Source: Aphrocallistes beatrix (taxonomy: Eukaryota > Porifera > Hexactinellida > Sceptrulophora > Aphrocallistidae). From it: a stretch of 64,000 nt of DNA. The stretch is taken from positions 2,356,001 through 2,420,000 of the forward strand of contig OY725491.1 of the NCBI GenBank assembly GCA_963281255.1, written 5' to 3'. A program made the position numbers and the translations under genes. Position 1 is the stretch's first letter. Every line of letters begins with the position of its first letter. Below, one piece after another: positions 8,834-36,766 of the stretch. The notes beneath the pieces are model-generated. The model was not told where the DNA came from and did no database searches. It saw only the letters and a program-made list of their open reading frames with translations.

Positions 8834-9654
8834 GAGACACCTAGATCGTTTTTGCGTCCATCCTGGGAGATATCTTTCATGGGCTTTTCTCCTTTTACTC
8901 GGTCCTCAGAAGTAAGGTGGTAAAACTTTGACTCATTCAAAAAATTACTTTTTTACAATTATTAATTTTCCAGAACCTAGAGTTTTTATAATCATCTAAA
9001 CTTTTTCCTGTATTTTGCTAGTCTGCAAGTTTTAGAAGGTCTTCTAGCATAAAATCCCTGGTTTTTAAAACCGCGCCTCATAGTCTTTTCAGAAACCTCA
9101 AGACCTTTTTCCAGCGTTGAAAAGTTACGCTGACTGTTACGAGTCTGGTATTCCCCAGACATACTACTCCGCGGGTAGTTACTAGTAGCTAGTAGGTATA
9201 GTTAATTGGTATATATATAGTAGTTTGTTAAGCATAATTATTTCATGTGTTCGTATCCTGTTTAGTATTTCTTTGATAATAATCTTGTATATCTTCTGCA
9301 CTTATAACACGACCTCTAAGACAAGTAGTATGATATTTCTCCATGACGTTGTTTAATTGTTTGGCAGCCCAAGGTGAAAGCGACTTAAGCAGTCCTGTCC
9401 TTGGTAGGTTGGTCGTTGATCCTGTCTTTTGAAACTTCTTAAACTGCTTATGGATATGATTAGGGTTTGGAATCCGGATAGTAATATCCGGATACTATCC
9501 GGTTACCTAAACCATACAAATTATCCGCTATCCGGATATTAGCCTGACGGATATCCGGATTCATACAATTGATTCGTTTAAAATCGTTGTAACAAATCTG
9601 ATACAAATATTGATTCGTTGCTGTTGACAAGCTTTAAGCATAATACCAATAACA

Positions 9655-10617
9655 ATGAGATTGTTTTGCTATAACACATTTCTATACATACTACTCGACT
9701 ATCTGTCTGATTCTATCAGCTACAAGATGACTATAAGTATATTATATAAAATATTTCCTCCAATTATATTCTACATGTCCACAATTCAAGTAAAGAAATC
9801 TGAAGTTTGGCAACATTTTTCACGACAGGGCGATTTAGCAACATGCAATATATGTAATACACAAATTTGTTGTAAGGGCGGTTGTACTAGTGCTATGCGA
9901 AATCATTGCCGCTCGAAGCACAAAATTTGTTTTAATGAGTTCCCAGAAACGGCAAAGAAGAAATGTAATAATCAATCAGAAATTCTACAGTATTATACCA
10001 AGAAGGAGTCTTTAGCAGAAATTATCTCTAGACTTACTGCGGAAGATGGATTTAGCTTCCATGGAATAGTAAGAAGTCAATTCATTAGGAGATCTTTGAA
10101 TGAAAAAGGATATAGCCCACCTTTGTGCCCGAAAACTGCAGCAAGACTTGTCATTTCCTTCAGCAAAAGTATTAAAGAAAATTTGTCAGGACAAATATCA
10201 GGATTACTTCTCAAAGGAACAAGATTCAGTATTTCATTAGATGAGTATACCTCATGTCATAATCGCAGATTTATGAATATTAATTTGCATACCAAAGAAT
10301 GTTTTTGGAATTTGGGTATGCAAAGGATATCAGGAAGTATGCCAGCTGAGAAAGTAGTTGAGATGGTTAGCCATAAACTTTTGGAATATGGTTTAGTTCT
10401 AAGCAAACATATTGTAGCAACTGTTAATGATGGAGCCTCAGTTATGGTTAAGTATGGTAAACTGATCGAACCAGAACAACAGCTTTGTTATGCACACGGG
10501 ATTCATTTAGCCGTTTGTGATTTTTTATATTCACCTACCTCAAGCTTTGTTGAAAAGATGCCCCTTGATGAAGAGGAATTCAGTGATGATGCCATTACTG
10601 ATTTAGATAAACGTTGA
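9655..10617 (+). pseudogene. hAT transposase, N-terminal part (BED zinc finger)
   Basis: A BED-type zinc finger is visible: VWQHF, then CNIC and H-x4-H in RNHCRSKH. It is followed by a hAT N-terminal region with SISLDEYTS, which holds the probable first catalytic Asp, and CYAHGIHLAVCDF, a hAT signature. The frame stops at 10617. The family start is probably the Met of MSTIQVKK (~9775), since residues upstream are not BED-like. A second fragment follows 77 nt later in another frame. Confidence 0.85.
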
Positions 10618-12231: not shown

Positions 12232-13371
12232 TCAGTAGGCAAGGCGAGATCTGAACGCCTGAATGAAAGGAGGTCGTCCTTGAGTTCTCTCACCTTCCAG
12301 AGTAGAGCGATACCTCTCCATCAGAGGACGAGTGATCCAATCATTCACGTGATTGAATCTCTTTCTTCTGAAAGAGAGTTTAAACAAAATACTCACCAAA
12401 ACAGAGAAGTAAGCTGAAATTATATACAAGTCTATTAATGCAGTGCTTACGTCAGTTACATATCTACTTATATCAAGTATTTTGTATGCGAATGCTCGCC
12501 AAGGAAGGTTGAATTTAGGAAAATAACCCGATGAAATAGTGCTATGGACACCAGAGTTATACAGAATAGATATTAGTGAAGTGAAGAATTCAGAAATGTT
12601 ATTCAATAATATTATGGCTATCAGCACATAAGTCAAAACTTGTGTGTAAAAGAAGCGATTAGTGATTATCTTCTTCTCCAAGTAATCCTTTCGAGAAGAA
12701 TGGTAGAATGCCTCATCTCTTCTCCCTTTCAACAGGACATAGAAAGCACGAGAAGTAGAGATGTAGACGTGAATATCGAACAGAGTCAATGGCAATTGGA
12801 AAATCTGCAAAATGTGAAATGCTTTGGTAATCAAAAACAATACAACGACAGTAATCAATCGAGCTAAGATATACAGAATGTATCTTCTCACCCAATGCTT
12901 ATATGGCAGATTGATAAAAACCCTCCTTAACACAATTAGGAATAGACAGAGGACAGGCAGTATTAGGCTCAACATTATGCCAGACAAGTTCCTGAGCAAT
13001 ACGAGAAAAGGATTTGCTAATATACTTGTGTTTCCATATGTTTCTAGAGTGCTATTATGTGCATCGTGATTGACGGACTCAATTGTTTCATTGATTATCA
13101 ACTGCATTCCCAAGGAAACATTCGCAGATATTTCTATTATCAGTATTAAGATTAGGAAATTATGTATCGTTGATTCTATCTCAAGATTCTTCTTCTCTTT
13201 TTTTAAGTCGATATTGAATATTGTGAAATGAGGCACATTCCTAATCCGTATTCTACCCTGATATTTCTGATACACCAAATATGTCAAAACGGGTAGCGTG
13301 ACAACAAGGAATGGAATCAGGACCAATATCGGCAGAAGGATACCAGCCAAGAGTTTGAAAGTGAACACCAT
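12232..13371 (-). CDS. Intronless seven-membrane-segment protein, family not recognised
   Basis: 379 residues without introns. Hydrophobic segments at about 5-33, 68-92, 127-151, 163-185, 188-208, 240-268 and 310-335. Basic loops fall after segments 1 (QKYQGRIRIR), 3 (RRVFINLPYKHWVRR) and 5 (KGRRDEAFYHSSRKDY), and in the tail (SFRRKRFN). The loop between segments 2 and 3 has several N-glycosylation sequons (NET, NST, NTS). By the positive-inside rule this gives an outside N terminus and inside C terminus, as in G-protein-coupled receptors. I see no DRY, NPxxY or conserved extracellular Cys pair, so the receptor idea rests on topology only. It is divergent from the megasynthase (ATGs 1.75 kb apart), with no sign of functional linkage. 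It could be a lineage-specific chemoreceptor or another polytopic protein. Confidence 0.72.
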   Translation of the reverse strand: MVFTFKLLAGILLPILVLIPFLVVTLPVLTYLVYQKYQGRIRIRNVPHFTIFNIDLKKEKKNLEIESTIHNFLILILIIEISANVSLGMQLIINETIESVNHDAHNSTLETYGNTSILANPFLVLLRNLSGIMLSLILPVLCLFLIVLRRVFINLPYKHWVRRYILYILARLITVVVLFLITKAFHILQIFQLPLTLFDIHVYISTSRAFYVLLKGRRDEAFYHSSRKDYLEKKIITNRFFYTQVLTYVLIAIILLNNISEFFTSLISILYNSGVHSTISSGYFPKFNLPWRAFAYKILDISRYVTDVSTALIDLYIISAYFSVLVSILFKLSFRRKRFNHVNDWITRPLMERYRSTLEGERTQGRPPFIQAFRSRLAY

Positions 13372-15124: not shown

Positions 15125-18100
15125 ATGAGTTCTGATTCGCATCCCTACCAAGAATTTCTAGACTTGCTAAGCGAGCAGTTTACACGAAACAGTTCTGGCG
15201 TGGCTGTTATCAGCCATCAGAACTGCTATCACACTTACTCGGAGCTTGAAAAGGCTGCATTGCAGGTGCAGACATTCCTCTCACAAGCGGGGGCTAGTAG
15301 CAAGCATGTGATTGCAATTTGTACCCATCAAGATGTCAGTTACATAACTGCACTCATAGGTGTGATACTGCAGGGCTGCATCTTCCTAAACCTAGACATC
15401 AACTCAATTCCGAGTGCCATGAAGGAAACTCTGGGATTCAGACCCCCAGACCTACTAATAGTAGACCAGCACTTCCCCAATGAAAACCTAACTCAGGGAG
15501 ACATCTCATATCCGATCGTGTTCATTGAATCGATTATCAACGAGGATACTCCCACATTCAACTTACGTGTCACCCCCCAGGTCGCTTCAGAATTTGATCC
15601 TGATGTAATGTACCTAATTTACACTTCAGGATACACTGGCACTCCTAAGTGCGTGATGGGCAGCTACACTGCCATTCTGAACAGGTACTGCTGGAATTGG
15701 CAGCAATTCCCATTTGAGTCCAATGATTTATTGTGCTGTCAAACATCACCTGCATTCACTGACTTCCTATGGACATCCTTAGGTGGTCTGCTAGTAGGCA
15801 CGCCCACCATACTCATAGCTAAGCGTGTCTTCATGAACGTATCCCTATTCCTTCACCTCCTTCACTCATACTCAGTCACGCATGTCACTGTTGTCCCAAG
15901 CGTTCTAATGAATATGAATAAAATCTTGAGTAGAAAAGTGAAGTCCTCGTTTTCACTGAAATACCTCGTTTCGACAGGCGAATTGTTATACGATTTCATT
16001 GCGAAAGACTTCCTCACATACCTACCGTCTTGCTCTGTAATAAACCTGTACGGCAGTACTGAAGTAGCGAGTGACATAACCTTCCACATCGTGAACCCTG
16101 ACGGCATTAGCGACATTGACGAGCACCAGAGGATGCCGATAGGTAGAGCCATCACTGGCGTTAGCTGCTACATAGTAGACGGTGACGGAGAGGTAGTGAA
16201 GGAACCTTATGTGGTGGGGGAGCTACTTGCTGCTGGAGACTGTCTATCTCACGGGTACTATAAAAACCCGGAATTGACAAAGCTTAAGTTTGCTCCGCTC
16301 TTTCTATCGCCTGAGGAGGGAGCGGTGGTTTGTTTCAGGACTGGAGATCTCGTTTCTTGGCTGCCTAGTGGAGAGCTGGAGTTCGTAGGGAGGGTAGACG
16401 AGCAAGTTAAGATATCAGGGTACAGGTGTGATCTGAAAGAGGTTGAGACAGTTCTGCTTAAAATAGCTTTCGTTGAGAGAGTACTCGTACGAGTCACTGG
16501 ATTCTCAAAAGAAAATCCACAATTGGTGGCATTTATACAACTTGACCCCGCTTCTATGTCCATTTCAGACTGTCCTTCCTTTTGGAAGGATATCAGTAGG
16601 CAGAAACAGATCCGCTCGCTCATCGCTAGAACCCTCCCTTCCTACATGGTTCCTAGCATTTACATTTTTGTCAAACAATTTCCACTTCTCCATTCTGGTA
16701 AGATCGATATGAAATCTCTTCCAGATCCATCCAAGTTAAGCTTGGAAGATGAAACCGAAAATGTTCCATTACACATCGAGATCGGAGTTTTAAAGTTTGT
16801 GAAGGAATGTTTTTCCAAACACCTACATGTTGATCAGAACCAGATTAGTACGGGGGACAGTTTCATGGAATTGGGTGGCTATTCTTTGCTTGTCATGTCC
16901 CTGCTGGATGATATCGACTCTAAATATGGTGTTTGTATGCCTGTTTTTCTCTTCATTGAAGATCCGTCTATTCTCAATTTATGTAGATTTATACAGTCAA
17001 GTAACAGGAATACGCAACAAATTGGGAAAGCTTTGACATTGGATCGACAAACAAATTTCTCTGGAAAGATGCCGATTTCTTTCGCTCAAGAAGAAATATT
17101 TTATCTCCATGAATCGAATAGTCTTAAAAGTACTTACAACGAGTTTCTTGCAGTGGAGTTAGAGGGCAATTTCCATGTGCCTCTATTGCAGACTGCATTA
17201 GATGACCTAGTCAATGCTCATTTCATATTGAGAACGACTTTCCATTTAGAAAATAAGGAATTTTTTCAGAAACTCCACCCTTCTTTTCCCTGTAAGCTCC
17301 AAGTCCTGCAAACCTCTTCTAAAGATCTGAGAAATGCTCTGCTCCAGAATATACATCATGAATTCTCACTGAGTTCCCTCCCTCTATTCAGATTCAAGCT
17401 GTTCATCATGAATGAGAATACTAATTGCGTGAATTTCTCCAAGAACCTACAAGGGAAGCTAATCTTACTGCTAGTCACACATCATATTCTCATTGACGGA
17501 CTTTCTCTATATAAATTGGTTGTAGAGCTCCTTGATACTTACTGCACATACTCTGATACCTCAGCTAAGTTGAACACAGCCACACCCATTCAACATGTGA
17601 ACTTTGCAATGCAGGAGCGATCCCCAGAGTACCAAAGTACGTTCCGAGACCAGCTAGGATACTGGAGAGCACAGCTGGACAGTTTGGATCCGTTGCATAT
17701 AATGCCAGACATGGACGGTGGTTCAAACCAAACCAGTGCTGGGCAAGTCTTGTGTGCGATTAAACCGGAAATAAGGAGAAAACTCCTCGAAGTGTCACTT
17801 GCCCATAACACCTCCTTATTCACCACTCTCCTCGCCGCCTACGCTTTCCTCCTCTCCAAGTACTCGCAAGATCAGGACGACGTCACGGTTGCCACCCCGA
17901 TGAGTATACGCTCACACATCACGCAAGGAATGGATTTAATTGGTCCGCTGATGAATGTCACCTTGATTAGAACCAAGTTCGGTCTATTGAAGCCTCTCAC
18001 TCAACATAGTTTCAGTAGCTTCCTTGTCAGGATGCATCAGACTGTGAGAGAAGCTATGGACAATGTGCTAGTGCCTTTGCAACTGGTTGTGAGTGGACTC

Positions 18101-21100
18101 GATCTGGATGAGAACAGGGATGCACCATTTGAAGATAAGATGCAAGCTCTGTTCGTGTTTCACGAACATTCCAAGATGCTTTCGCACGTGAAGAGTGAAG
18201 AGTTCGTCATTAGAGAGTTTCCATTCTACCCTGAGCTTAACATGCAAGCGAAGAGCAACCTCGTTCTCTCCATAGACCTGCTAGAGACGGAAGGCCTGCA
18301 AGCTAGATTTGCTTACAAATCTTCTTTGTATAGTCAGTATTTCATGAGACAGCTCGCACAGGATTTCAAGCAGCTCCTTCAATTTGTGTCAGAGCGGCCT
18401 ACCGCCCTACTTTCTAAGTTCTCTCTTCTTTCTTCTGAAGAGTATAGAGACATAATGTCACTCAGTACCACCCCCATATCCAAACTTACCAACTTTTCCA
18501 TCCCACAAGTCTTCTATCAGCATGTTAAGAACTCGCCTCACTGCATAGCTTTAGAGATCGAGAATTGCATATACACATATTCACACCTCTGCCACCTCAT
18601 ATCTAATGTAGTTCCATCTATTACTAGCCTGACACGACACCAGGGCTCCATCATAGGTGTATGCATGCGGCAGTCAGTTAGTCTTGTAGCGGGGATTCTA
18701 GCCATCCTGTTTGCAGGGTTCGGTTATGTGTACCTAGACCCAGACCTGCCCACAGGCAGACTAGAGTACATGGTGCAAGACGCCAACATATCAACTGTGT
18801 TAACAGACTCCAGTACTGATATAGCATACACCATCTCACAACATGTTTCTACTATTATTGACATTGAACCGCTGGTTTACGCCGAGGCCTCAGTTCAAGA
18901 GGAATTAGTAATAAGGGACTCGAATGAGATATGCTACATCCTCTACACATCTGGGAGTACGGGAAGACCGAAAGGAGTGATTGTAAGTCAGAGTAACGTT
19001 ATCGCACGCTGCTGCCTCACACCAGAACTCGCTGGACAACCAGGATCGAGGTTTTGTCAGTTCAGCTCGTTTAGTTTTGACATCTACGCATACGAGTTCT
19101 ACTGCTCACTCCTGAACGGGGCAACTCTCTGCATGTACGATCGGAACAAGTTTTTGGCTCAGTTGGACTTATTCGCTTCTTTGATACAACGTCAATACAT
19201 CGACTGTTTGATGCTAGCTCCAGCTCTCGTCGACATCCTTTCCAAAGGCTATCCTCGAGTGTTTTCTTCACTGCAGGCTCTATTGGTCTCAGGGGATGTA
19301 CTCCCATCTATTGTGTCCAACAGAATACTAACTCAAGGTCCTCCTAACAGCTTCTATAATCTGCACGGCATAACGGAGATAACTGTAGTCGACACGATTT
19401 ACAAGATTAACGACCTCATCTATAATGACGTTCCCATTGGTCGTCCTCTCTCCAACAATTTTATATTTATAGTGGACAAGCATATGAATCTACTGCCGAA
19501 GGGTATTGTAGGAGAAATCATAGTGGGAGGTCTTAGTGTGGCACTTGGTTATCTCAACAACGCAGATAAAACGAAGGAAAAATTCAAAACATATCATTTC
19601 AAAGAGGACTCCAGGTCGAGGCTTTTCAAGTCAGGAGATCTAGGGTATCTGGACTTTACGAACAACTTCCGGTTTATAGGCCGGGGTGACTGGCAGATTA
19701 AACTGAGAGGCCAGAGGCTGGAGTTGGGGGAGATAGAGAGGGTGGGACTAGAGTGCCCGGGAGTGGATGACTTTATTGCTGTCTGTTTGAAAGAGCTGGG
19801 TGTACCTGTTTCTATTATCGGCTGTTGTACCACTGATCGACAAGATTATTCAGACCTCACATCAGAGTTAACCAATCATTTGCGAGACAAACTAGCTCCT
19901 TATATGCTCCCGAGTGACATCCACCTCCTTAAGGAGTTGCCATGGGGGAACACCGGAAAGGTGGACAGACAGAAACTGTTGAGCTGGCTAGAAAATGGGA
20001 AAATCTCAAATTATTTGTTAAGTCCTGAGTGTCAAATAACTGATCAGAAAGATAAGAGAAGTGAAGTGATTGCTTATATCGAACAAGTTTATAGGAATTA
20101 TTTTCCAAGTGTTCAAATTTCTATGACGTCAGATTTCTTCCACATAGGTGGTAATTCCATTGTAGCGTTGCAACTTGTTACTGAGATTAACTCGAGCCTC
20201 AAAATCAAAGTATCTCTGAGGGAATTCTTCCAGAATACAACCATCACTTCTCTCGCTAAGTTCATATGCGAGAACTTTGAACTTTCTACGATACCGTTAG
20301 AACGGAATCTTGGTGATGATAGTGTTGGTCTATCTAAGCAAGATATTTTAAAATTCTTAACCAAGCATTTCCCACTTCTGACTGGATCTGATTTATCCAA
20401 ACAAAACGATGAATTCTTAACAAGCATATGTTACCAAGTCAACACACACTTTGGAGTGAAACTTCTCTTGAGAGATTTGCGAGAAATAAATTCTATAAAT
20501 GATCTTTCCTCTCTCATTGTACAGCAGCTTAACTTTAATGAGGTTCCTGGTGAAATCCTGATTTCCAAGTCGTATCCTTTGATTTCCACACAAAAACAAT
20601 TCGCGCTTGCCTATCTATTGAATCCTAACCAAACTGCATATCAAATTCCAATCTGCATACTCACACAGCATCCCCTGGATTGGAAGATAGTTGAAGAGTT
20701 TTTTAATTATTTCATTCAAAGTCACGCAATATTAAGAACTGTCTACTCTCTAGCGACCGAATTCTCTCAGGAAATTATACAAACCAATTTCCCCTGCGTA
20801 CATAAGCAAATCATATTGCCATTTGACTGTGAAGAAAATGCACTAGAATGCGAGAAAGTTAAGGATTTTGTTTATTCTGAAATAAATGTGCCCTTTGACT
20901 TAGAGAATAACATCCCGGTCCGAGCTAGTCTTGTAGACTTGATATTTGGAGAGGGGAAATCTAAATCTTTGATAGTCCTAGTCCTCCATCACATAGCGGC
21001 GGATGGATGGTCCGTAAATCTGTTATTAGATGAACTTCAGAGTTTCATCAAATTATATCCAAACTATGCCCTCAAACAGACAAATTTTCTCGAACTTTCT

Positions 21101-23945
21101 AATGTCGAAGACAAGATTAATTTAGATTTTTGGAGAGAACACCTCTCTCAGTTTACTTGTCCGCAGTTTGCATCTTTTATGTTCCACCTGACACCTCCTG
21201 AATCCACTTCAGAACTTCCTAAAACCTTCAAAAGTTCCCTTGGACAGGATTCGGTGAGTTTGCTACAGCGTACAAGCAGAGATTGCGGCGTTACCAGCTT
21301 CATTACTCTCCTCTCTGCTTGTTTATATCTCTTTACGTTCTATTTGGAACCGGATCTAGCGACTACCATTCTCACCCCGGTATCTACTCGCTCCACGGTA
21401 GCCGAAAAGCAACACTTCGGTCCGAGTGTGAATCTCCTTCCCATCGCCTTAGGATTTGAAGACGAAAATATATTTTCCAAACTAACTTTCAGAGATCTAA
21501 CTAAGCTTACTCAATCAGCATTCTTCACTGCTCTAGATAATTCACCCGTAGCCTACGAAGAGATCCACCCGTTTCTAAAACCGAATTCCTTCGGTTGGAC
21601 TAGGATACCGATCATATTTAGTTTTGACTCAAATCAGTTACAAACCTCGCTTGATTTCGGAAAATTCGGTCGTGCGGAATGTTTTCCTGCTTTCGATTAC
21701 TTACCAAACTTCGTACAAGACTTTCTGTTGGAAGTCAACCTCACCGATAGTGCGATTGAGGAGACTTTAACTGTTAGTGAGACGAGGATTAAAGAAGAGA
21801 TTTCTGGTAATATTCTAGCTCAATACAATTCGCTATTGGAATCTCTCTGCACTTATCCTGATGTTCCACTGTCAAGATTGTCTGCTTTACCCAGTCCTTA
21901 TAAGGAATCATTAATTGGTCCCCAAATTCCATCTGAATATCAGAATGTTGTGAAGCTGGTATATGACATATCAAATGAATACGCTGGTCGTATAGCGTTT
22001 GAATTTGGAGAAGAGGAGATGACCTATGAGTTATTCTTCGCGAAATGTTACAGTTTTTCATTTGAAATTCGTAAATGCCTTCCCTCAAAATTGACCAAAA
22101 ATAGGGTTGTGTCTATAATCATGGATGTGACGATAGAACTCGTCATTTCAGTCATATCCGCCCTTATATGTGATTGTACATATGTCCTAGTAGATCCCAG
22201 TCTTCCTTCCAAACGCATCCAAGCCAGCTTTGAGACGTCTACCGTTATTATCACGACCAAACAATACAAGGCATTGTGTGGAGAATTATTAACATGCAGA
22301 TCTACAATTGTTATTGTTTTAGAGAGAGATATGCTGGAAAATATTGAAGTCCCAAAGAATCATAATTTTAAGCTGACAAACCCGACACTCTATATTATGC
22401 CTACTTCCGGCTCATCTGGAGAACCGAAATTTGTCGCGATTCCTCAACAATCCATTATTACACGTGTCCACGTCAAATCCCCCCCGTTTTACGTGCCTAA
22501 TGAGACAGTATTGATTTGCGGTAGCTTGTCATTTGACATTTTAACCCTTCAAGTGTACAGCTGTCTATTCAGTGCTTCTAAAGGTGTGATCCTACACCAG
22601 CAATGTCTCGGAATGCAGTTGAGCAAGCTTGCAGCCACAATCGTATCTAAGTCTATTACTTACATGACGCTACCTACGCCAGTTCTCCATATGCTAGTTG
22701 AGACCTTCATTCATGCCTTCAAGCAGGTCAGGTACGTGGACGTGGGAGGGGATGTAGCCTGTCCGTCTATTCTTCATAGACTCAAGCAGTCTTATCCACA
22801 TTTGCGATTGAGTAACTCATACGGACCTACGGAAGCTACCATCACATGTACGTTTGCTATGCTATCTCTAGAAGACTGTAGCAGGACTAATGTCACGATA
22901 GGATCTGCTAATCCTAATACTCGATTGCTTATCGTGGACAAACACTTACGTCCAACACCATTCGGTTTAGCAGGAGAGTTGTTAGTAAGCGGGGCTATCA
23001 TGTCCGGATATCTTAACCTCCCGGATGCGACCAGTGAGAAGTTTGCCTCACTGCCAGACGAAGTTGGGAATGTGAGATTGTACTTCAGGACAGGTGACAA
23101 AGTACAGCAGAGAATGGATGGAAAGATAGAATTCCTAGGTCGCTACGATTTTCAAGTAAAACTTAATGGTCAGCGAGTTGAACTTTTCGAAATTGAACAG
23201 ACACTTGCGAAGCATCCCGAAGTCCAGCAGGCCATCGTGTTTCTCAAAAAGAGAGAAAGCTCAAGCATAAAAACCTTAGTTGCTTGTGTTCTATGTCAGA
23301 ATTCCGTCGCACGTGAGGAGCTGGATACTCATGCTAGAAAGTATCTGACCTCTGTCATGATTCCTTCCAAATTCTACTTTTTCAAATCATTCCCTCTCAC
23401 AGTAAATGGAAAAATAGACAGGAATAGAATACTGAAAGATCTCCCAAAAGATGCGGATAAAATTGCTGAGAACATCCCCACTGAAAAAACTTCATTCGTG
23501 AGTCAACATTTGTTAGATGAAGTATGTGCAATCTGGAGACAGGTTCTGTCCTTGGAGGAAGTTCCCTTAACCCAGCCCTTCCACACACTCGGAGGCACCT
23601 CCTTGCTGTTAGTCCAGCTGCATTATAAACTTCAGCAAGAATTTCATGTGAATCTGAGCCTGCCTGAAATGATGACGCGTAATACCGTGTGGACGCAGGC
23701 TAATTGGATAGTGAACAAATCTGATAAGAAAGTGGTACATTCAAATGACAAGCAAGAAGAGTTGGAGGATTTGTCGTATTTGCGTACAAGCGTGCCTGTG
23801 CTTGCTGCAGTACAGCCGCCGCATCCAGAGTACCTTCCACTGGCCGTGGTAGGGATGTCCTGCAAGTTTCCTGGCTCCGAGAATAAGGAAGCATTCCACG
23901 ACACACTTCTACAGGGAAAGGATTGCATTGAAATACACGAGACAG
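15125..23945 (+). CDS. Megasynthase exon 1: A1-T1-C-A2-T2-(dead carrier)-C-A3-T3 and start of KS
   Basis: One 8,821-nt open exon. A1: core YTSGYTGTPK (~res 164), YGSTE (~307), FRTGDL (~404), lysine in SGKID (~525). T1: GGYSLL (~583). C1: HHILIDG (~784), intact HHxxxDG. A2: YTSGSTGRPKG (~1277), HGITE (~1415), TGKVD (~1611). T2: GGNSI (~1673). C2: HHIAADG (~1954), intact. A3: PTSGSSGEPK (~2425), YGPTE (~2565), NGKID (~2760). T3: GGTSLL (~2823). KS begins at LAVVGMSCKFPG (~2904). Specificity codes read by hand against GrsA positions: A1 TDWTVTLSDK, A2 DIYMLSLVVK, A3 DILTDGSITK. A1 lacks the usual first Asp and has Asp at the second position. A2 and A3 keep the first Asp, as alpha-amino-acid domains do; I cannot assign their substrates. 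The exon ends at a donor GTAAAG; the frame runs 149 nt into the intron before a stop, so the true protein continues in exon 2. Confidence 0.92.
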
Positions 23946-26900
23946 GTAAAGTTAGAAATTACCGATTATTATCAGGGCTTTTCATAATCATGAACTTTAG
24001 GTCTGAGTCATTGAGTCGTCTAATTTTGGAATATGAATACTGGAGTTACCACAACATCGTATCATCAGGCATCAGCTCTTTCGACCCGATTTAGTGAACT
24101 CTGTCATTTTAATTACGTACTTAGTCATCGAGCCGTCCCAATTACTCAATGAAAAGTTCTAAATCTTCCCTAGGCGTATTGAGTTGTCATGAATTGCTAG
24201 TAATATCTGGGAATTTTTGTTTCTCTATTCCTATACTGGGAAGTAAATAGTATATTCAAATTTCTTGGGTTGGGTTGGTTTGCGTTAGTATAATTTTATG
24301 CGCTTCTTACTAGAATCTGGATGGATTGTTTTGATTGACTAGATTTTCGAAAATTTGATATACTCTCAAGTGTATTTAGAGTTTCGTTTATTTTGCTTGT
24401 TGATTACTTCATTGAAATCTGCCCAAGCAAATACCATTTATGGGAAAAAAATCGTTACACCCCGTCTATTTTTCTTTGAAGGTGCTACATATCTTATCTG
24501 TATATGCCAAATTAAATTAATCTGATGTTATGCTAATTCCTAGTTCTTGTTTTTTTAAATAATGAAAATATCCATTTGTTGGTCCATGAACAATTACCGT
24601 ATATCCTCGGGGTGATATTAATATTTTAGATATAAGAGAGTGAATATTACTACACGAGTCAATCAAGAAATGGTAGAAGGGAAAATTGAGCGTTAATATT
24701 CTCCCTAAGGAGTAACAAATATTTAGCACCCTCTAGCTTGATTATCCGAGGGCCAGACCCCTCGTGTTCCTGGACTAAGTGAGCATAATTGATATTAACG
24801 CAAACTTAGTCTAAATGAAGGTAATCATACAAGTTGCAAAATATTCGTATAATTATGCGACAATTGAATATGAAAATTCCAGATATTCACACATAACTAC
24901 TTGTACCTTAAGCCGTAGCCTTGCATGTACAACCATTCCATGTCCATTATCTTGAAACTCATTATAGAAGAAGGATATATCTCAGCTGGAGGAAGTTTGA
25001 AAGACCCCGAACTGTTCGATGCTGATTATTTCAACATTTCTAAGTTCGACGCCGCACTGATGGACCCTCAATACAGACTAGCTCTGCAGCATTCTGTTAA
25101 TGCTATCCGAGACGCCGCTCTCTCTCTTGAGCAGGAGACGGTTGGTGTGTTTATAGGTAAGTACGTAGACGGAAGTCCGGTAACATTCTGACTGAATTAG
25201 TAGAAGGGATGCTAACTGAATTTAGAGTTGATTTGTATCGGTTTCAGTGTGCATTTTCAGTTTAATTTTTAATTTAATTAAGTGAGAATGTTTACTTGTC
25301 TGTTTCTGTTAAAAATATGGTTGAAACTCAATCAGAAGTCTTCGTTTGAGTTAACCATCTCGTGTTTAAGGTGCTAGTTAGAGTAAAATGGAGTTCCAAT
25401 TCGGTTTGATGACCATTTGTGTACTTTTCTAACTCTGCATTTTGAGAGTAACTACTCATCGCCATTAGAACACTATGATGGTCAGCGATTGAAATTTCAT
25501 TATTTTATTGTTATTTTTTCAGTTTTAAGAAGTTTTCAGCTGGCATTCCTATTCAATAGAAGTATAGCAAACCAGTATATCGAGTAATTAAGTGTATCCG
25601 TACTTGTATAATGTAAAATAATGATTCTTTGTTATACAGTCAACTCCACTTAATAGGGTCACTGTTTAATAGGGTCAACCGCTTAATCAGGCCACTTTTG
25701 GCAGGACCGGAATAGCTCTCACACATAGAAACTAATACAAAATATTTTCGGTTAATAGGGTTCTCCGCTTAATCGGTCCAAAATGTCCTCTGACCGATGT
25801 GACCCTATTAAGCTATTAAGCGGAGTCGACTGTACATGTGTAATAAAAATGTATGCAGTATGCCACTATTATATCCTTGCCCCTAAAGACACACTCAGTT
25901 CCTGTTGAAATAGTCTAATAGAGATGTAATTATGGATATTCTGCAGGCTGCGCTTCCAACACCTACCTCCCGCAGTCAGGAGCAGACCTCTGCTCGTACC
26001 GGAAGGACCCCGCTCTCTCCTTCTACCTAGAGAGGGTCCTCACCGATGAGACAGCAGCGAACTTCATATCTTACCACCTCGACCTAACCGGGCCGTCTCT
26101 GCTCGTGAAGACGACCTGTGTCTCCTCACTCACGGCCCTGCACCTGGCCTCCCACTCCATACGGGCTGGAGAATGCACTGCGGCTATTGTGGGGGGAGTT
26201 GATATCAGCTTTCCGCAGCTAACTCCGGTTAGGAAGCAGGAAGATATGATTTTCTCTCCTTCTGGTGAGGATAGTGTGCACTTTATTCATTTTGGAGTCT
26301 TGTTTGTGCTGCTTATATAGGGAAATGCTCTTACGGTCTGATCAGCGTACCATGTCTGTCCTTCAGAATAACATATAATTCCAAGGGATTATCTAGGAGC
26401 AAGAGACGCTCCTTTTTGCGTATGGTTTTGAGCCCGAAAGTGTTTAGGAGCGTGGAAATTCAGAATATTACCAATTTACTCTATATTATAATGCTATTTA
26501 GCGATTTAGGCGCATGAAAATTTATTGGTTTTAGACTAGGAGCGTATCTCTGGAGGGCTGTATAATTCTTACTACATTTGCTCTGTAGATTCCTTTGCAT
26601 TGTAAAGCGTACCTTGTTTGGTATTTTCGATTCAGGTCAATATGATGATATTCATATTAACACCTATAATGCACTGTACTCTAAGGTAGAAATGCAATGT
26701 TTGCTGCTAATTTCTGATGACTACATGAATCCTTTGTTCATTCAAAAACTAACAGATCAATAACGGAATTTCTTGGCGAATAACTCATTGCTTCATATTA
26801 ATCTTAACAAGTACATACAGCGATCTCACTAATTTCCTTCTGCAGGTCACTGCAAATCATTTGATCAGAATGCAGACGGCTTAGTTCCTGGGAGTGGAAT

Positions 26901-29900
26901 AGGTCTGCTGGTTGTCACATCTCTAGACAGAGCTCTACAGCAAGGCTATCCTATATACTGCGAGGTCAGAGGGAGTGTCATTAATAATGATGGAAAGAAC
27001 AAAGATACATATTTCTCCCCGAGCCTTGATAACATGACGAGTTGTATCAAGAAGTGCATCTCGTTAGCTGGTATAAGTGACTGTGAGGAAGTTGTGGGGA
27101 GTATTGAAGCACATGGGGCTGGCACTCAAGTGGGAGATCAGATTGAGTTAGAAGCACTACATAATGCCTATCAGTCAAATCAGGGAAAGATCTATTTAGG
27201 TTCAGTCAAGTCTAACATTGGACATCTGGGATACGCGTCGGGAGCTGCTGCTCTGTGCAAATCAGTGCTGCAGTTAGAGAAAGGTGTCTTCTACCCCAGC
27301 TTGCATTTCTCTGACTGGAATAAAGAGTACACGAGTAGGCACAGTTCGCTACCGTTCAAGGTCACTTCTAGGGTCGTGCCTTGGGTTGGCAGCGGAAAGA
27401 AGAGGCGAGTCGCTGTGAATGGCTTGGGCCAGGGAGGAAGTAATGTGCATATTATCTTAGAGGAACACACTCGGTCTCAAACACTTCCAGAGAATATAAG
27501 GTCAAATGCCGGATATATATGTCCGTTCTCAGCACATAGTGGAGATGCATTGAAGCAAAGTTGTAGTGAATTGGTTCATTTGATTGAAAGCCATTCTGAC
27601 ATGCATTTTGAGAGTTTCCTCGCCTCTGTTTACAACACCACGCGTGACTTCCCGTTCCGTAAATGCCTACTAACTGACAATATGTTCGATCTGCTAAGTC
27701 AGATGAAACAATGGTTGTCATTGAAACAAGAGAGAATCCCTGCTTCTAACAGTCCCCACAACCTAGTATTGATCCTTTCTGGACAAGGCACACACTTCCC
27801 TACGATGGGACTTGGACTATACTTAGATTCCCGCGTTTTTAGGAAATATTTTGACGAATGTGCACACGTATGCAATACTAAACTCAACTTTGAGTTGATT
27901 GACCTACTTTTCTCCCAGACTCTACACTCCTCATCTCCAGAACTCCAAGTGTATTTACTCTGTCTGCAAGTCAGTCTGGTCAGATTCCTCCGGGCTGTAG
28001 GCTTAACTCCTGCTGCCATAATAGGGCACAGTCTCGGCGAGCTCTCTGCTGCAACAGCCAATGGCGTATTCCTATTAGAGGAAGCAATCCAGTTAGTTTA
28101 TCACCGCAGTACACTTATCATGAAGATAGCAGGGCCGGAGTATGGAATGGCGGCTGTACAGGTTGGTCAGGATGCCGGGAAGATTTTAGCCTCCAGGTTT
28201 GATGTATCAGTCGGAGCGATAAATAGTCCTGAACAAGTTGTGTTGTCAGGAGAGAAGACTAAGCTAGAACTGCTCTACTCACACCTATCTGCTAGCAATA
28301 TTAAATTTAAACAGTTGCAGGTGCCGACAGCTTTCCATTCTAAAGTTCTCCAGCAAATCATTCCCGAGTATAGGCAGCTTCTAAACCAGTTTCCTCCGAA
28401 AAATACTACGAGTGCTCTCATTTCTACTGTCACGGGGGGATGGGTCAAGGGAGATAGTTTAGCTACTCTCGCACATTGGGAGAATCAGTTGGTCAGTTCC
28501 GTTTTGTTCTACTCAGCCCTGAAAACCGCATCTCAGATAGCTAATGCAGTCTTCGTAGAGGTTGGTCCTGGAAAAAGGTTGTCCTCCATTATAACGAAGC
28601 ACTTTTCAAATGTCAAACTCTTAACTCCGCTGTTAAAATCTGATTCACATTATCTAGAAACTATGAGGGAGGCTTGGGAGCATGGTCAACCTTTGAAATG
28701 GAATCTTTTTGGTTTCTTTGAAGATTCAACTCCCAAATTACGCATGTTTCCCTATCCTTTCCAACAACAGCTACACAGTGTGGGCGATGTTGAACGGGTT
28801 TTAAAGCATCACAAACCCCAACAATCTGCTCAGCAGTCCTACGTCATGGCTTCTAGCCCTCTCTCTAACGTTATTCCCAAACAAGCCCTTGTTGAATTAG
28901 ATCGAAATGTCTCAACCTCACTAGTTCGTCTATGTAAGAGTTTCTCCGCCAAGATTCTAGAAGGCGAACATTCTAACTTTGACATATCATTTGCAATTCA
29001 GTTTCCAGGTGGATCTGTTACATTTGAGCATTTACGAGACATCTCCCCTGCACCTGACACGATTTATCCTATTGGCTGTCTCTCCAGCATCTTCGTCTAC
29101 ATCATCTACAACATTTTCCTAGACTCAGGTAGGGTTTCCAACAGCACTAAACTAGCAGATCTCCTCCCACTTGACTTTTCAGTTTCAGAGTTACAGAAAT
29201 CGATCACTCTCTTTCAGCTCGCTACTCATTCCTCTGGTCTCCCTTTCCTGCCGTCCAAGCTTGAATGGGATGTGTCCTCCCTTTCCAGCTACTCCCTATC
29301 AGACCTGTTCTCCGATTTCACAACTTGCGAGCTATCTAGCAACCCAGGAGCTAAGTACTCGTACTCCGTATTTGGTACTGCGTTGCTTACGCACGCACTC
29401 ACTGCATTATCAGACCAGTCCTATGAAGAGCTGCTGCAATCCTACATCATACAGCCTCTAGGTCTGAAATCTACCTTCATAACTGCGTCCATGCGCACTC
29501 TTAGGCTGAAGCACTATCAAGGTCATGATGTTAAGGGTAAACGAGTGTGCAGTTGGAAGTGCGGGGAAGCTTTCAAATTCGCTGATGGGATATTCACAAA
29601 CTTGACAGATCTGATATCGCTCTCGCAATATCTAGTTGGACAGAACCGAAGTGATATACCCTTTAAACAAGTTCTCAACTTCATGTTTCAATCAGATCAG
29701 GATTCATACCGGTTCCTCTCTGGTATCACCAACGGTAGTTCGGTTTGGTTGGCGGTAAATAGAGAATGGAACACATCTCTAATCCTAGCTTGCAATACCA
29801 GTCTTGATACCTGCAAGAAGTTGGCCAAATTGACTGAGTTCGCTTTCAGCTCTATCGCATCCCTCTACACCAGCACCTACTCGAGCGGTATTGTGAGCAG

Positions 29901-32225
29901 TCCTCAATCGCTTCCCTCCTCTTTTGGTGAGAAACAGGTGGTTCTGTTGGGTGGTGGGAGCCTAGCAGCTTCTGATGCACCAATAGCGGCCCTCTCCGGA
30001 CGAAGCGATAGAATAACCACTGCAGTTACGGAACTTGCAACAGAACCAAAATCGAAGGTTGAAACTCAGATTTCAAACTCTGTATTGTCAGAGTTGGAGA
30101 CAAGAATTTTGGATCCATTATCTGCATTTGTAGGAGCTGACATACTGAACAGGAGCGACGTCCGAACTCTTCAATTCTCTGATATGGGACTGGATTCACT
30201 GCTAGCTATTTCGCTCGCTGAGCAGATCTCGCAGAGTTTAGGGAAGAAAGTTTCGTTTCATCTTATATCGGAATACCCCACTGTATCTGAGTTGGCCATT
30301 TATCTTCAATCGCAGCAGGAATATCTTCCTGATTATGTTGAATCGATAACCGAGAACTCCAGTCCTGTTTCTGTTAATATAGAAACGATTATTGAGCCGA
30401 GAAATACGAATATATCTTTCCAAACATTAGCGAATACTAGAATGTACTATTTATTTGAGGAAGATACATTTCCATTAGTGATTGAGCCTTCTTCACCGCA
30501 GATTAATACCGTCAAAGATTTGCGACATCTAATTTCCCAAAATCCTGAATCTATCAAATCATTTTTGCTCAAAAATGGCGCTCTTCTATTTAGAAATTTC
30601 AAACTTCATTCGGCAGAAGATTTTTCAGCAATTTCTCTAGAGTTAAGCGGGATCCTGGGTCCACAGGTTAACTACATAGACGGGATATCTCCCCGCACTC
30701 GTATCCTAGACAAGATCTACACCTCCACTGAGTACCCTTCAAGATACGACATGTCTCCTCATAACGAATTGTCCTATTCTCCTCTGTCCCCCTCACACAT
30801 TTCGTTCTTCTGCCTCACGCCCCCTAATTCTGGCTGCGGGGGGCAGACTCCGCTCATGAGTTCTAGAGATATCCTCCATAGGATTCCAGCGGAAATACTC
30901 GATAAATGGAAAGAGAAGGGACTGAAGTACTATTGGAACTTATCTAGTCGAGGGAAAGGGGCAGGGAAGTCATGGCAAGAAACCTATGGAACGGAAGATC
31001 CTAATTATGTAGAGAAATACCTTCAAGATCAGAACTTTCAGTTTGAGTGGAGAGGAGATACCCTCAGGACTGCACGGTAAGTTTAAGAGATATAGAAACT
31101 TGATAGCAACCTGTACATTTAAAAAAATATCATCTTAATTTCGATAATAGGCAACAAACATGCATAAGTAAACTCCAAAGTCCAAACACGATACAATGCA
31201 TGTTAAACTGTTAACCCGAGGATTACTTGGGGTCAAAGGTATAAATAGAAATGACCCAGCTTTCACTTTCATTTTCAGTTTACTTTCATTTTCAGTTTAC
31301 TTTCAATTAACTTTCACTTTCAATTCAACATTCCTGGACGTGCTCGGGTTAATTAAACACTGTTCTCCCAGGTCCATCATCGGCGCCTATGTCTTTCTAT
31401 GGTAAAATATTCATGGACTACTTGTATTATATTTTAAATATAACTACAGTCGAAACCGTTTTTTTCTTACTATTTCTTTACAGGTTCAAACAGTAAGAAA
31501 AAAACGATGTAAATTAATATAGATTTGGAATTTTTTACATAATTAAGATTCTGAAATAGTAAGAAAAAACCGATAAGTAAGGATAAACCGGAGTGAGAAA
31601 AAAACGGTTTCGGCTGTATTTGAACTACATACTTGTACATTCTAGTTATATCATTTGAAGGCTTCCATGTTTCCTTCTCTGTCAAATGTAATAAATCCTA
31701 AATCGACTAATTCATTGAAAATCGCAAAGAAAAATGAATAATTCATGAATGATTCAAAAGAATTATTAATTTTCGAAGAATAATAAATTATTCAATAATT
31801 GAAATACTCTTTGTTCATGAATTAGTCAACTTAGAATGCTACTAGATCCATGATTCGTATTTATTGTTTCTAATCATTCTTGTAGCAATGCTTCCGTAAC
31901 TCGGCGTCACCCGATCACTGGAGAAGAGGTTTGGTTTAACCACGCTATCCTGTTCCACCCTTCAGAACTGCCGGCACCGATAAGCACCTCTCTGAAATCA
32001 TTTTCAAGAAATGAATACCCAAAGCATTGTACTTTCAGTGACGGTAATGAAATACCAGACCTGGAAATAAGTCAAGTTAAAAACATGTGTCATTCAAGCC
32101 AGATCATGTTTGACTGGAGAAAAGGGGACCTGTTGCTACTGGATAATTTCCTGGTCGCACACGGAAGGAAAAGTTTTGAAGGAGACAGATCAATTTTGGT
32201 TGCAATGTTCAGATCTAAAGATTGA
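15125..32225 (+). CDS. Hybrid NRPS-PKS megasynthase (whole gene, 5 exons)
   Basis: Assembly-line enzyme predicted to join three amino-acid-type units and extend them once with malonate. Exons: 15125-23945, 24968-25156, 25947-26264, 26846-31076, 31886-32225. All introns are GT-AG (phases 1, 1, 1, 2); the joined frame is 13,899 nt, 4,632 residues. Order with rough residues: A1 5-540, T1 550-620, C1 650-1080, A2 1120-1625, T2 1640-1710, serine-less carrier 1735-1803, C2 1815-2235, A3 2260-2780, T3 2790-2855, KS 2903-3315, AT 3410-3715, beta-lactamase-like 3788-4120, ACP 4185-4265, TauD/TfdA 4310-4632. The start ATG directly precedes a normal A-domain N terminus, so module 1 has no condensation domain and should load the starter. 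There is no thioesterase, terminal condensation or reductase domain. A separate phosphopantetheinyl transferase would be needed. Product unknown; likely cytosolic, since no signal peptide is seen. Domain calls are confident, exon ends good, the start fairly good. Confidence 0.93.
23946..24967 (+). other. Megasynthase intron 1 (within KS)
   Basis: GT-AG intron, phase 1, donor GTAAAG and acceptor ATTATAG. It contains no gene I can recognise. The KS is about 18 residues shorter here than usual between its first motif and MDPQ, so a small missed exon inside this intron cannot be excluded; I found no convincing candidate. Confidence 0.75.
24968..25156 (+). CDS. Megasynthase exon 2: KS, dimer-interface region
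   Basis: Encodes the KS stretch with GGSLKDPELFDADYF and MDPQYRL, matching the GGFL..FDA.FF..MDPQ block of type I ketosynthases, up to VGVFIG. Acceptor ATTATAG, donor GTAAGT at 25157. Phase 1 at both ends (189 nt), so it joins exons 1 and 3 without a frame change. The upstream ATG at 24925 lies in intron 1 and is not a start. Confidence 0.88.
25157..25946 (+). other. Megasynthase intron 2, carrying a pogo-type MITE
   Basis: GT-AG intron, phase 1, acceptor TTCTGCAG. It carries a copy of the same 190-bp TA-flanked MITE that occurs in intergenic DNA at 1778 and 43706. This ties the megasynthase physically to the host nuclear genome. Confidence 0.88.
25637..25832. mobile_element. pogo-type MITE, copy 2 (in megasynthase intron 2)
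   Basis: About 196 bp, same family as 1778-1968, inverted ends CAGTCAACTCCACTTAATAG and CGGAGTCGACTG, TA on both sides. Confidence 0.8.
25947..26264 (+). CDS. Megasynthase exon 3: KS active-site cysteine
   Basis: Starts CASNTYLPQSG and carries VKTTCVSSL, the equivalent of the DTACSSSL nucleophile motif; the catalytic Cys is at nt 26117-26119, residue about 3061. It is followed by GECTAAIVGGVD. Acceptor CTGCAG, donor GTGAGG at 26265, phase 1 both ends. The exon looks more GC-rich than exon 1. KS catalysis appears intact, because both histidines are present in exon 4. Confidence 0.9.
26265..26845 (+). other. Megasynthase intron 3
   Basis: GT-AG intron, phase 1, pyrimidine-rich acceptor CCTTCTGCAG. 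No repeat or RNA gene recognised in it. The short reading frame at 26578-26763 is intronic and without family features. Confidence 0.85.
26846..31076 (+). CDS. Megasynthase exon 4: rest of KS, AT, beta-lactamase-like domain, ACP, first part of dioxygenase
   Basis: KS: EAHGAGT (His ~3198) and NIGHLG (His ~3235), both catalytic histidines. AT: GQGTHFPTMG (~3420), GHSLGE with the active serine (~3504), and TAFHS (~3604) where malonyl-specific domains have HAFH, so malonyl-CoA is likely. Next comes a domain of the serine beta-lactamase/PBP fold: DTIYPIG, THSSGLP, PGAKYSYSVFG, IIQPLGLKST in the usual order. The SxxK motif reads CLSS (~3851), YxN reads YSV (~3948), and no clear HTG/KTG is seen. ACP: MGLDSLLA (~4223), serine intact. 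The dioxygenase begins about 4312, with metal ligands in PHNELSYSP (~4415; an HxE pair). The exon ends CG|GTAAGT, phase 2. The ATG at 27034 is internal, not a separate gene. Confidence 0.9.
31077..31885 (+). other. Megasynthase intron 4, carrying a 170-bp MITE
   Basis: Donor GTAAGT, acceptor TTCTTGTAG, phase 2. Contains a run of related TTTCATTTTCAGTT units (about 31261-31326) and a TA-flanked MITE at 31447-31616. The 69-residue reading frame here (31196-31405) lies over that repeat and is not a gene. Confidence 0.87.
31447..31616. mobile_element. Small MITE (in megasynthase intron 4)
   Basis: 170 bp, ends CAGTCGAAACCGTTTTTTTC and ACGGTTTCGGCTG, TA duplication at both sides, interior with further AGTAAGAAAAAA repeats. 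Confidence 0.75.
31886..32225 (+). CDS. Megasynthase exon 5: C-terminal half of TauD/TfdA dioxygenase, stop
   Basis: Completes the 2-oxoglutarate/Fe(II) dioxygenase: VTRRHPITGEEVWFN, then LLLDNFLVAHGRKSF with the distal metal His (~4611), and GDRS with the Arg expected to bind 2-oxoglutarate (~4620). Together with the HxE pair in exon 4 the facial triad is complete. An acidic residue at the middle position favours hydroxylation or desaturation over halogenation, where Ala or Gly replaces it. The family is used in NRPS pathways to oxidise carrier-bound amino acids (SyrP-like). TGA at 32223-32225. Confidence 0.9.
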
Positions 32226-35128: not shown

Positions 35129-36028
35129 TTGAGGGGAGGGATATACCCTTGCTTGAATAATTTCAACTAGGTGAGGCGAAAGCTTCAAATACGTAATCTT
35201 TAACATCTTTATATCCTGTCTACAAAATCTACATATAAGTTGGCTGTTTATAAGACTATTAGCAGCATTTACTGAAACATGATTTTCTAAAACCGTGGCA
35301 CCAGCGCTGTTTTAATAAGTACGACGGTATCTTTCGAATTGACCCTGAATCCTCACAAAGTTGTCCAATCCTTACTGAATACGAACGAATGATGTAATCT
35401 AATTAGCATATTGCGCCAGTCTGATTCATAATATTGTGTTCTATAATTAAAATGGTGCTACACATCAACTGAGTAGCACTTTCTAAAAATAGAACTACTG
35501 CAGTTTTCTCTATGCTTAGATTGTTATATAAGTAAGGCATCTAAAATTAGTGCATAATTGTTTAGTGAATTTGATACTAATCTAGAAATAGGGGACATGG
35601 TCCTACTGGACTTTAATTTAGCTTGTGTCAAGTGCCGAATCTAATTACGCCTTCTTATTTCATCTTGTAGGCTGTCTCCCAGATTTTGATGGAGGATATT
35701 ATATTTTATTCACCAAGGTCTCTTTTTAGACTTAATTACGTCTTGATGAATTTTTGCTATCTAGGGCCTACAACTACCAAAGGCAGTCTATGTGCCGGTA
35801 AGAAGCTCTTGTTTATATTTTCAGAAAGGACATTCACTACCTATTCTCTAGGTATAATAAAATATAATAAAAAGGTATAATAAAGGCGGAATGATTTTAA
35901 AAGAATAACCAGGTCCTGGGGGATATTTATGTTGCAGTATTGAACACTTTGTATTATTATACATAGGAGTAATTTTATTTAGAAAATCTTAGATAGACAG
36001 CTTCATTAGATTATTGTTCTCTGCAATT
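35129..36028. other. Upstream region of eIF6
   Basis: No other gene seen. The promoter and any 5' UTR exon of eIF6 are expected here; TCTTGTAG at 35662-35669 is a possible acceptor. Confidence 0.4.
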
Positions 36029-36766
36029 ATGGCTTTCCGCATCCAGTTTGAAGGCAATAGTGAGGTAGGGGTATTTTCGAAACTTACCAATGGCTATTGC
36101 ATCACCGCTATCGGCCAATCCGAGAACTTCTATAGCGCATTCGATGCAGAGCTCTCAGACGTGATACCAGTCATCCATGCCAGCATAGCGAGCTGTAGCA
36201 TCATAGGACGTTTGTGCGTGGGAAACAAACACGGACTGTTGGTCCCCATGACCTGCAGCGATCCAGAGCTACAGCACCTGAGGAACTCCCTGCCCGACTC
36301 GGTCAAGGTGCAGCGAGTTGATGAGAAGCTCTCCGCGCTGGGAAATGTGATCGCTTGTAACGACTACTTGGCTCTCGCACACCCGGACCTGGACAAGGAA
36401 ACGGAAGAGATCATCCGGGACACCCTGAAAGTGGAGGTCTTCAGACAGACGATAGCCGGGCACCCTCTTGTCGGATCGTACTGCCAGTTCAACAACAGTG
36501 GAGGCCTCGTACACTCGAAGACGAGTAAACTGGCACTGGATGAGCTCTCCTCTTTGCTGCAGGTTCCGCTCGTCGCGGGGACGGTGAACAGGGGGAGTGA
36601 TGTGATCGGGGGTGGACTGGCAGTCAACGACTGGGCCGCATTCTGTGGGATGGTGACGACTGCCCCTGAATTGTCGGTCATAGAGGGTGTTTTCAAACTC
36701 AATATAAATGCTCCACCTACCATGGGCACCAAGATGCGCGCCACCATACTCGATTCTATCTCGTAA
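36029..36766 (+). CDS. eIF6: Eukaryotic translation initiation factor 6
   Basis: 245 residues, the usual animal length. eIF6 binds the 60S ribosomal subunit, blocks premature joining to 40S and is needed for 60S biogenesis in the nucleolus and cytoplasm. Family blocks in order: [123 protein letters not shown] and VFKLN. The frame is open 15 nt upstream, but ATG 36029 gives the conserved N terminus. The coding part has no intron and looks clearly more GC-rich than its surroundings. No poly(A) tract or target duplication was seen to prove retroposition. A 5' UTR intron ending near TCTTGTAG (35662-35669) is possible. The antisense frames at 36269-36790 are shadows. Confidence 0.97.

Follow-up and report, generated by a model that had tools for sequence, protein, structure and literature searches.

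A five-exon hybrid gene in the window

The window, by which we mean the whole 64-kb stretch of DNA that was analysed, contains a large gene on the forward strand between positions 15125 and 32225. Its five exons join into one frame of 4,632 amino acids and a stop codon (13,899 nt), which has no internal stop. Open frames of 2,989 and 1,348 codons occur in the window and cannot be chance. The exons are as follows.

15125-23945 (+): exon 1, encoding A1-T1-C1-A2-T2-(possible carrier remnant)-C2-A3-T3 and the start of the KS; Pfam matches in a 2,989-codon frame, donor CAG/GTAAAG
24968-25156 (+): exon 2, part of the KS (PF00109 positions 58-122); alternative starts 3, 6 or 18 nt later
25947-26264 (+): exon 3, part of the KS with the active-site Cys (PF00109 positions 116-208, E 4e-17)
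26846-31076 (+): exon 4, C-terminal half of the KS, AT, a predicted beta-lactamase-fold domain, ACP and the first two thirds of TauD; 1,415-codon stop-to-stop frame
31886-32225 (+): exon 5, C-terminal third of TauD and the stop codon; unbroken alignment

The four introns (581-1,022 bp) are all of the GT-AG type, and the phases of the exons are compatible. When the whole genome was searched with the PF00109 profile, exons 1, 2, 3 and 4 were matched in order (profile positions 3-36, 58-122, 116-208 and 214-251, respectively). This order supports the first three junctions; the last falls within TauD, and the two parts of this domain align to bacterial enzymes without a break. Since the exon 2 acceptor can be any one of four in-phase AGs, the protein is 4,632 residues long or at most six residues shorter.

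A Pfam search of the joined frame returned three A, two C and three carrier domains, a KS, an AT, a PF00144 match (the domain that the initial annotation called X), a fourth carrier and TauD, all in a single protein with the order A-T-C-A-T-C-A-T-KS-AT-X-ACP-TauD. The E-values were 1e-147 (A), 3e-86 (C), 3e-31 (T), 5e-49 (AT), 2e-30 (C-terminal half of the KS), 2e-19 (PF00144), 7e-16 (TauD) and 8e-10 (ACP). The initial annotation had described a spliced NRPS-PKS hybrid of 4,632 residues; the length, the in-phase frame, the GT-AG borders at all four junctions and the Pfam domains bear this out. The hybrid gene is real and, judging by its sequence, is probably working.

Nuclear location, host and copy number

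The assembly comprises 100.5 Mb; the scaffold that carries the gene is 6.1 Mb long, and eIF6 (36026-36763) lies about 4 kb from the gene. The G+C content of introns and flanks is 30-36%, that of the exons 43-57%. Intron 2 carries a repeat found elsewhere in the genome; it was counted by scoring 40 of 2,118 first-look candidates.

25633-25837 (+): dispersed repeat with inverted-repeat ends, in intron 2; on at least 16 scaffolds, mostly at 87-96% identity

Sponges harbour microbes rich in NRPS and PKS genes, and the 2,989-codon frame of exon 1 taken alone could pass as bacterial, both of which would fit a symbiont gene joined to host DNA by contamination or misassembly. This explanation has to contend with four GT-AG introns in a domain-continuous protein, with an intronic repeat present on at least 16 host scaffolds, with the nearby eIF6 and with introns whose G+C content is that of the flanks. 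Moreover, plasmids gave distant matches only, and pattern scans of viral and genome contigs gave none. A symbiont contig is ruled out by the repeat-bearing intron, eIF6, the scaffold and the G+C content of introns and flanks, and we consider contamination or misassembly extremely improbable.

The mitochondrial genome of the assembly is contig C28 (17,996 bp). Its COX1, when AGA is translated as serine and TGA as tryptophan, scored 752.6 bits against PDB chain 8ugh_4A and contains 14 TGA codons and no TGG. Pfam identified atp9 (ATP synthase subunit c, PF00137, E 5e-14), nad3 and nad4L; inspection of the frames brought out further genes, and all that were noticed share one strand. The contig has 71.3% A+T, an AT skew of +0.173 and a GC skew of -0.289, and the corresponding values reported for Aphrocallistes vastus are 70.7%, 0.18 and -0.28 (PMC2267718). 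In its accessible text the same paper lists genes on one strand, atp9, rare TGG and AGR as serine among the traits of hexactinellid mitochondrial genomes, the last being unseen in demosponges or other lower metazoans (PMC2267718). The AGA serine codons, atp9 and the hexactinellid skews identify the host as a glass sponge. The earlier assignment of the gene to an animal nuclear genome, and its linkage to eIF6 and to host repeats, are thus upheld by the assembly: the 6.1-Mb scaffold joins the gene to eIF6, the host-wide repeat (at least 16 scaffolds) sits inside intron 2, and the accompanying mitochondrial genome is hexactinellid.

The hybrid gene is single-copy. Both C-domain matches of the genome (2/2, PF00668 profile search) lie within it, and the PF00109 search gave five matches, four of which are its exons. 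The fifth (C6:3597363-3598103; L017, L130) is also the sole other match of the KS-to-TauD part, which has no second copy. This C6 locus encodes a mitochondrial-type ketoacyl synthase (NCBIfam fabF score 494.1, cut-off 493.75; best PDB match a mitochondrial synthase, 434 bits) and is not a FAS. No type I FAS ketosynthase was found in the PF00109 genome search; the sponge may lack animal FAS, or the FAS exons may have been missed. One phosphopantetheinyl transferase was matched in the genome. Comparison of A1-A3 with seven other host A loci (of 12 other A matches) gave no match of at least 60% coverage at E 1e-10. Four intact PF00501 frames of about 670-714 aa occur at C18:3152845-3240718 (three within 90 kb) and C1:10168942.

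No further biosynthetic genes were seen in the 64-kb window, of which five further frames were scanned with Pfam and the others by eye. The surroundings include a BED zinc finger frame (9655-10614, +; Pfam), the C-terminal part of a hAT-type transposase (8286-8840, -; by eye) and a retroelement frame (50035-51738, -) whose domains are a zinc knuckle, an aspartyl protease and a reverse transcriptase. A 379-aa frame at 12232-13371 (-) has no Pfam match and by eye resembles a multi-pass membrane protein. Ankyrin-repeat exons, possibly of one gene, extend over 55004-63492 (+), with Pfam matches at 62257-63489 and the part near 55 kb recognised by eye. The intron 2 repeat itself is about 200 bp long, has inverted ends of about 30 bp and resembles a DNA transposon of a short, non-autonomous kind.

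The NRPS half

The NRPS half is made up of the following domains; carriers were scored with an HMM built on 177 carrier-like sequences from bacterial loci.

15173-16261 (+): A1 adenylation core (PF00501, E 8e-46), code TDWTVTLSD(K)
16814-16987 (+): T1 carrier, GGYSL (carrier HMM, 21.5 bits)
17063-18454 (+): C1 condensation domain, HHILIDG (PF00668, E 6e-57)
18515-19555 (+): A2 adenylation core (PF00501, E 7e-58), code DIYMLSLVV(K)
20048-20260 (+): T2 carrier, GGNSI (carrier HMM, 47.3 bits)
20420-20509 (+): possible decayed carrier without the GGxS serine, between T2 and C2 (weak, 0.1 bits)
20567-21913 (+): C2 condensation domain, HHIAADG (PF00668, E 9e-28)
21974-23014 (+): A3 adenylation core (PF00501, E 4e-41), code DILTDGSIT(K)
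23516-23701 (+): T3 carrier, GGTSL (carrier HMM, 48.1 bits)

The A, T and C domains follow one another as in a type I modular NRPS, HHxxxDG is present in both C domains, and T1-T3 have the serine of GGxS. The motifs were read by eye in this protein. Such reading agrees with the initial annotation in finding the catalytic motifs intact in both C domains, in T1-T3 and, in the PKS half, in the KS (Cys and two His), AT and ACP.

By alignment, the A1 pocket has Thr235 and Asp236, with Asp236 in place of Asp235. As a control we took 196 bacterial A-domain rows from 89 loci, in which 16 neighbouring row pairs overlap. Among the 195 complete codes, Asp235 was found in 186 and Asp236 in none. Asp236 is presumably typical of beta-alanine A-domain codes. 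A1 thus looks specific for a beta-amino acid, most likely beta-alanine, a tentative assignment made by applying this code rule to the sequence. The code string was absent from the five papers that a literature search listed. The A2 code, DIYMLSLVV, appears nearest to codes for small or polar residues, an uncertain assignment given its poor fit, and the A3 code, DILTDGSIT, had no good match to codes.

The PKS half and the terminal dioxygenase

The remainder of the protein consists of a PKS module, domain X and TauD.

23837-27660 (+): KS with C-terminal extension, split over exons 1-4 (PF00109, PF02801, PF16197, bacterial KS alignment)
27772-28644 (+): AT, GHSLGE and TAFHS (PF00698, E 5e-49)
28885-29877 (+): X, predicted serine beta-lactamase-fold domain (PF00144, E 2e-19; alignments)
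30139-30306 (+): ACP, GLDSL (PF00550, E 8e-10)
30415-32222 (+): TauD Fe(II)/2-oxoglutarate dioxygenase, exons 4 and 5 (PF02668 and alignment)

KS (Cys-His-His), AT (GHSxG) and ACP occur in the same chain, as in a cis-AT type I PKS module. The catalytic residues of the KS are kept, the Cys in exon 3 and both His in exon 4. At junction 1 the KS is shorter than most bacterial KSs by about 14-20 residues of a variable stretch, which is either a real deletion or the trace of a missed micro-exon. The TAFHS motif of the AT we take to be of the malonyl type. The earlier proposal of a single two-carbon extension agrees with the presence of KS, AT and ACP and with the absence of KR, DH and ER from the Pfam matches.

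In an alignment of TauD with bacterial enzymes, the HxE...H iron ligands and the 2-oxoglutarate Arg are invariant, as in the TauD/TfdA family. No TE or reductase domain was among the Pfam matches of the full protein.

Domain X

The fold of X is predicted from two kinds of sequence match, those to Pfam and those to PDB chains; the best of the latter were serine beta-lactamase-type proteins and ClbP (E 1e-8 to 1e-7; ClbP 1e-7). A single-sequence AlphaFold model of the region reached a mean pLDDT of only 37. The motifs are altered: SxxK has become CxxS, YxN has become YxV and the His motif is gone, the Tyr being retained. X therefore lacks the SxxK, YxN and HxG-type motifs of an active PF00144 serine hydrolase. 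SxxK is also missing in two relatives of X, in Myxococcus sp. RHSTA-1-4 (L135) and Corallococcus praedator (L138), and is kept in three others. The two myxobacterial sequences suggest that a non-hydrolytic branch of the fold exists; both are bacterial PF00144-like proteins among the better matches of X. None of the matches listed, which came from 10/15 bacterial and 112/195 Myxococcota genomes, showed fusion of X to a megasynthase, and the largest frame among them had 1,305 aa.

Bacterial PF00144 serine hydrolases and ClbP belong by sequence to the same fold family as X, and PBP-type thioesterases share the PF00144 fold. X differs from all of these by the replacement of Ser and Lys, by the loss of the Asn and of the His motif and by its embedding between AT and ACP. 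The same features bear on the idea that X is a cysteine-based release or acyl-transfer domain, an in-chain beta-lactamase-fold cyclase akin to PBP-type thioesterases. No TE or reductase is found elsewhere in the protein, a Cys occupies the position of the catalytic Ser with the Tyr kept, and bacterial PBP-type thioesterases are described as closing peptide rings (PMC11735501). However, the Lys, Asn and His partners of such a Cys are gone, and X precedes the ACP instead of being C-terminal. PBP-type thioesterases, in the accessible part of the same report, are stand-alone Ser/Lys enzymes with a lipocalin-like second domain (PMC11735501), whereas X is embedded and Pfam shows no such domain here. 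Considering also the two myxobacterial relatives, we regard a cyclase function as unlikely. X probably serves as a non-hydrolytic element for structure or docking, in the position that a ketoreductase would usually occupy.

The gap of 14-20 residues in the KS, the loss of SxxK, YxN and the His motif from X and the possible carrier remnant without its serine might together mark the onset of decay in a gene whose former product is no longer made. Neutral decay is disfavoured because the losses are confined to auxiliary parts: the essential domains keep their core catalytic residues, and 4,632 codons are free of stops and frameshifts. We consider this explanation improbable.

Relationship to bacterial and animal sequences

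Searches of plasmids gave 2,449 records with a match to the NRPS part, of which 363 cover 80% of it, reflecting general NRPS/PKS similarity only; identity in the best rows was about 26-27%, and 27-32% for KS-AT. Coverage of 80% was reached for KS-AT-X-ACP-TauD in none of 1,068 matching plasmid records and for X-ACP-TauD in none of 146. In a local search of the retrieved loci the top identities were 38% (KS), 34% (A2), 27% (C1), 26% (C2) and 42% (TauD). Pattern scans with the protein alone found no relatives in viral contigs (exon 1) or genome contigs (exon 4). Bacterial NRPS/PKS parts being only about 24-42% identical, no donor is visible.

When KS-AT of exon 4 was compared with PDB chains, bacterial-type PKSs came first (8xjy, 295 bits; CurL, 263 bits), ahead of the best fatty acid synthase chain (171.5 bits), EcPKS2 (163 bits) and EcPKS1 (131 bits). 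By this similarity rank, the KS tree having been built without FAS rows, animal FAS and FAS-like PKS are not the nearest matches of KS-AT, and derivation of the KS from animal FAS is not favoured. In a 24-row KS tree the KS of the window groups with 17 bacterial rows at 92/81, under the tool's 95/80 mark. This placement is unsure because the branch is very long (2.65) and lies outside every starred set, and because the sole animal row is the mitochondrial ketoacyl synthase.

TauD was compared with 79 loci taken from the best 80 matches of a longer list. In this sample it falls among NRPS-linked dioxygenases, with a C domain in 68/79 and an A domain in 74/79 loci. The TauD frame exceeded 420 aa in 11 of the 79, one frame (L077) had a carrier domain, with a further domain before TauD, and BLAST revealed no beta-lactamase fold in any of the 79 loci. 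For X, descent from a host PF00144 gene was rejected, since BLAST at E<=10 aligned it with none of the four further PF00144 matches of the host.

The hybrid could also be an old animal inheritance, common to the other animal NRPS-PKS genes and lost in most lineages, with no transfer into sponges. Scattered animal NRPS genes are so interpreted in the accessible text of Suring et al. (PMC10531068), and the absence of a close bacterial donor (about 24-42% identity) would fit. The same text, however, considers the C. elegans NRPS-PKS to be most likely FAS-derived by its PKS domains (PMC10531068), whereas the sponge KS-AT is nearer to bacterial-type PKS than to FAS chains, and the domain order differs. 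We therefore see such inheritance as possible but not likely. The reading that we prefer, and think fairly likely, is that of a working single-copy multimodular NRPS-PKS, nuclear-encoded in a glass sponge, made of old bacterial-type parts and not derived from animal FAS. As a more tentative variant, to which we give only a small chance, the NRPS-PKS was inherited within glass sponges and X was rebuilt as a cysteine-based or non-hydrolytic element of release or control; if true, some peptide-polyketides now assigned to sponge symbionts would be animal-made.

Proposed assembly line

From the domain anatomy we infer the following substrates and order of steps. The host phosphopantetheinyl transferase would charge T1-T3 and the ACP. 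A1, which has no C domain upstream, would load a beta-amino acid, most likely beta-alanine. Two alpha-amino acids would follow through C1 and C2: one chosen by A2, tentatively a small or polar residue, and one chosen by A3. The KS would accept the tripeptide, the AT would provide malonyl, and a single Claisen step would give a tripeptidyl beta-keto thioester, which would form on the ACP and stay unreduced. The C-terminal TauD would then hydroxylate the carrier-bound chain. The steps up to the carrier-bound product are those to be expected from known families. Because no TE or reductase domain was found, the chain may be released through ring closure or with the help of a separate enzyme in trans. 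In one such closure the nitrogen of the last amide would attack the thioester and yield a tetramic acid, which is chemically conceivable but not a finding of this analysis. A role of the product in defence or signalling is a guess.

Peptides and polyketides of sponges are generally attributed to microbes. With a complete assembly line in sponge nuclear DNA, it becomes directly testable who makes this class of compounds; the gene suggests that a glass sponge is able to make such natural products itself, without microbes. Animal NRPS-PKS genes would thereby extend to an early-branching phylum.

Comparison with known systems

The initial annotation had called animal NRPS-PKS hybrids few and the domain order unlike any known. 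The former statement needs correction, as such hybrids are reported from many nematodes and from bdelloid rotifers (PMC10531068; PMC11258130). The latter stands: no match to the domain order was found in the literature or in the collections searched, and in the open-access literature searched neither a nuclear NRPS-PKS of sponges nor such an order was reported. In a screen of 1,059 animal genomes, Suring et al. count NRPSs in 7/19 phyla in the abstract and name 13 in the results; sponges do not figure among the NRPS-bearing phyla, and neither "sponge" nor "Porifera" is used in the main text (PMC10531068). The main texts of the genome papers on A. vastus (PMC10282587) and O. minuta (PMC10280926), as far as accessible, do not mention NRPS, polyketide or ribosomal peptide. 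Animal NRPS-PKS hybrids are thus known, and what appears new against the collections searched is the sponge as an animal group and the unmatched domain order, with a beta-lactamase fold inside a PKS module.

The nemamide synthetases PKS-1/NRPS-1 of C. elegans and the sponge gene are both animal nuclear PKS/NRPS hybrid systems, and in the nemamide system an A domain of NRPS-1 is described as loading beta-alanine (PMC8363725). The nemamide system comprises two proteins, with the PKS first and with TE domains, and its PKS domains are most likely of animal FAS origin according to the text consulted (PMC10531068). In contrast, the sponge gene encodes one protein with the NRPS first, bacterial-type KS-AT, an additional beta-lactamase-fold domain and TauD, and no TE in the Pfam matches.

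The NRPS/PKS genes of bdelloid rotifers are likewise animal nuclear genes, described as being of non-metazoan origin and including some hybrids; beta-lactamase and TauD are unmentioned in the accessible main text (PMC11258130). Rotifers are reported to have many clusters per genome (PMC10531068), whereas the sponge has a single gene.

Bacterial NRPS-PKS modules (Chroococcidiopsis, Brasilonema, Sinorhizobium) have the same domain types, with a KS and an AT in cis at loci linked to NRPSs, and their KSs are up to 38% identical to that of the sponge. The Nostoc C-TauD protein and PtcB of Halomonas have 34-38% identity to the sponge TauD, with the iron ligands and the Arg invariant. An NRPS-fused TauD domain is already known and is expected, in the part of the report drawn on here, to hydroxylate carrier-bound Asp (PMC7100376); the sponge TauD differs from it in being fused behind the ACP of a PKS.
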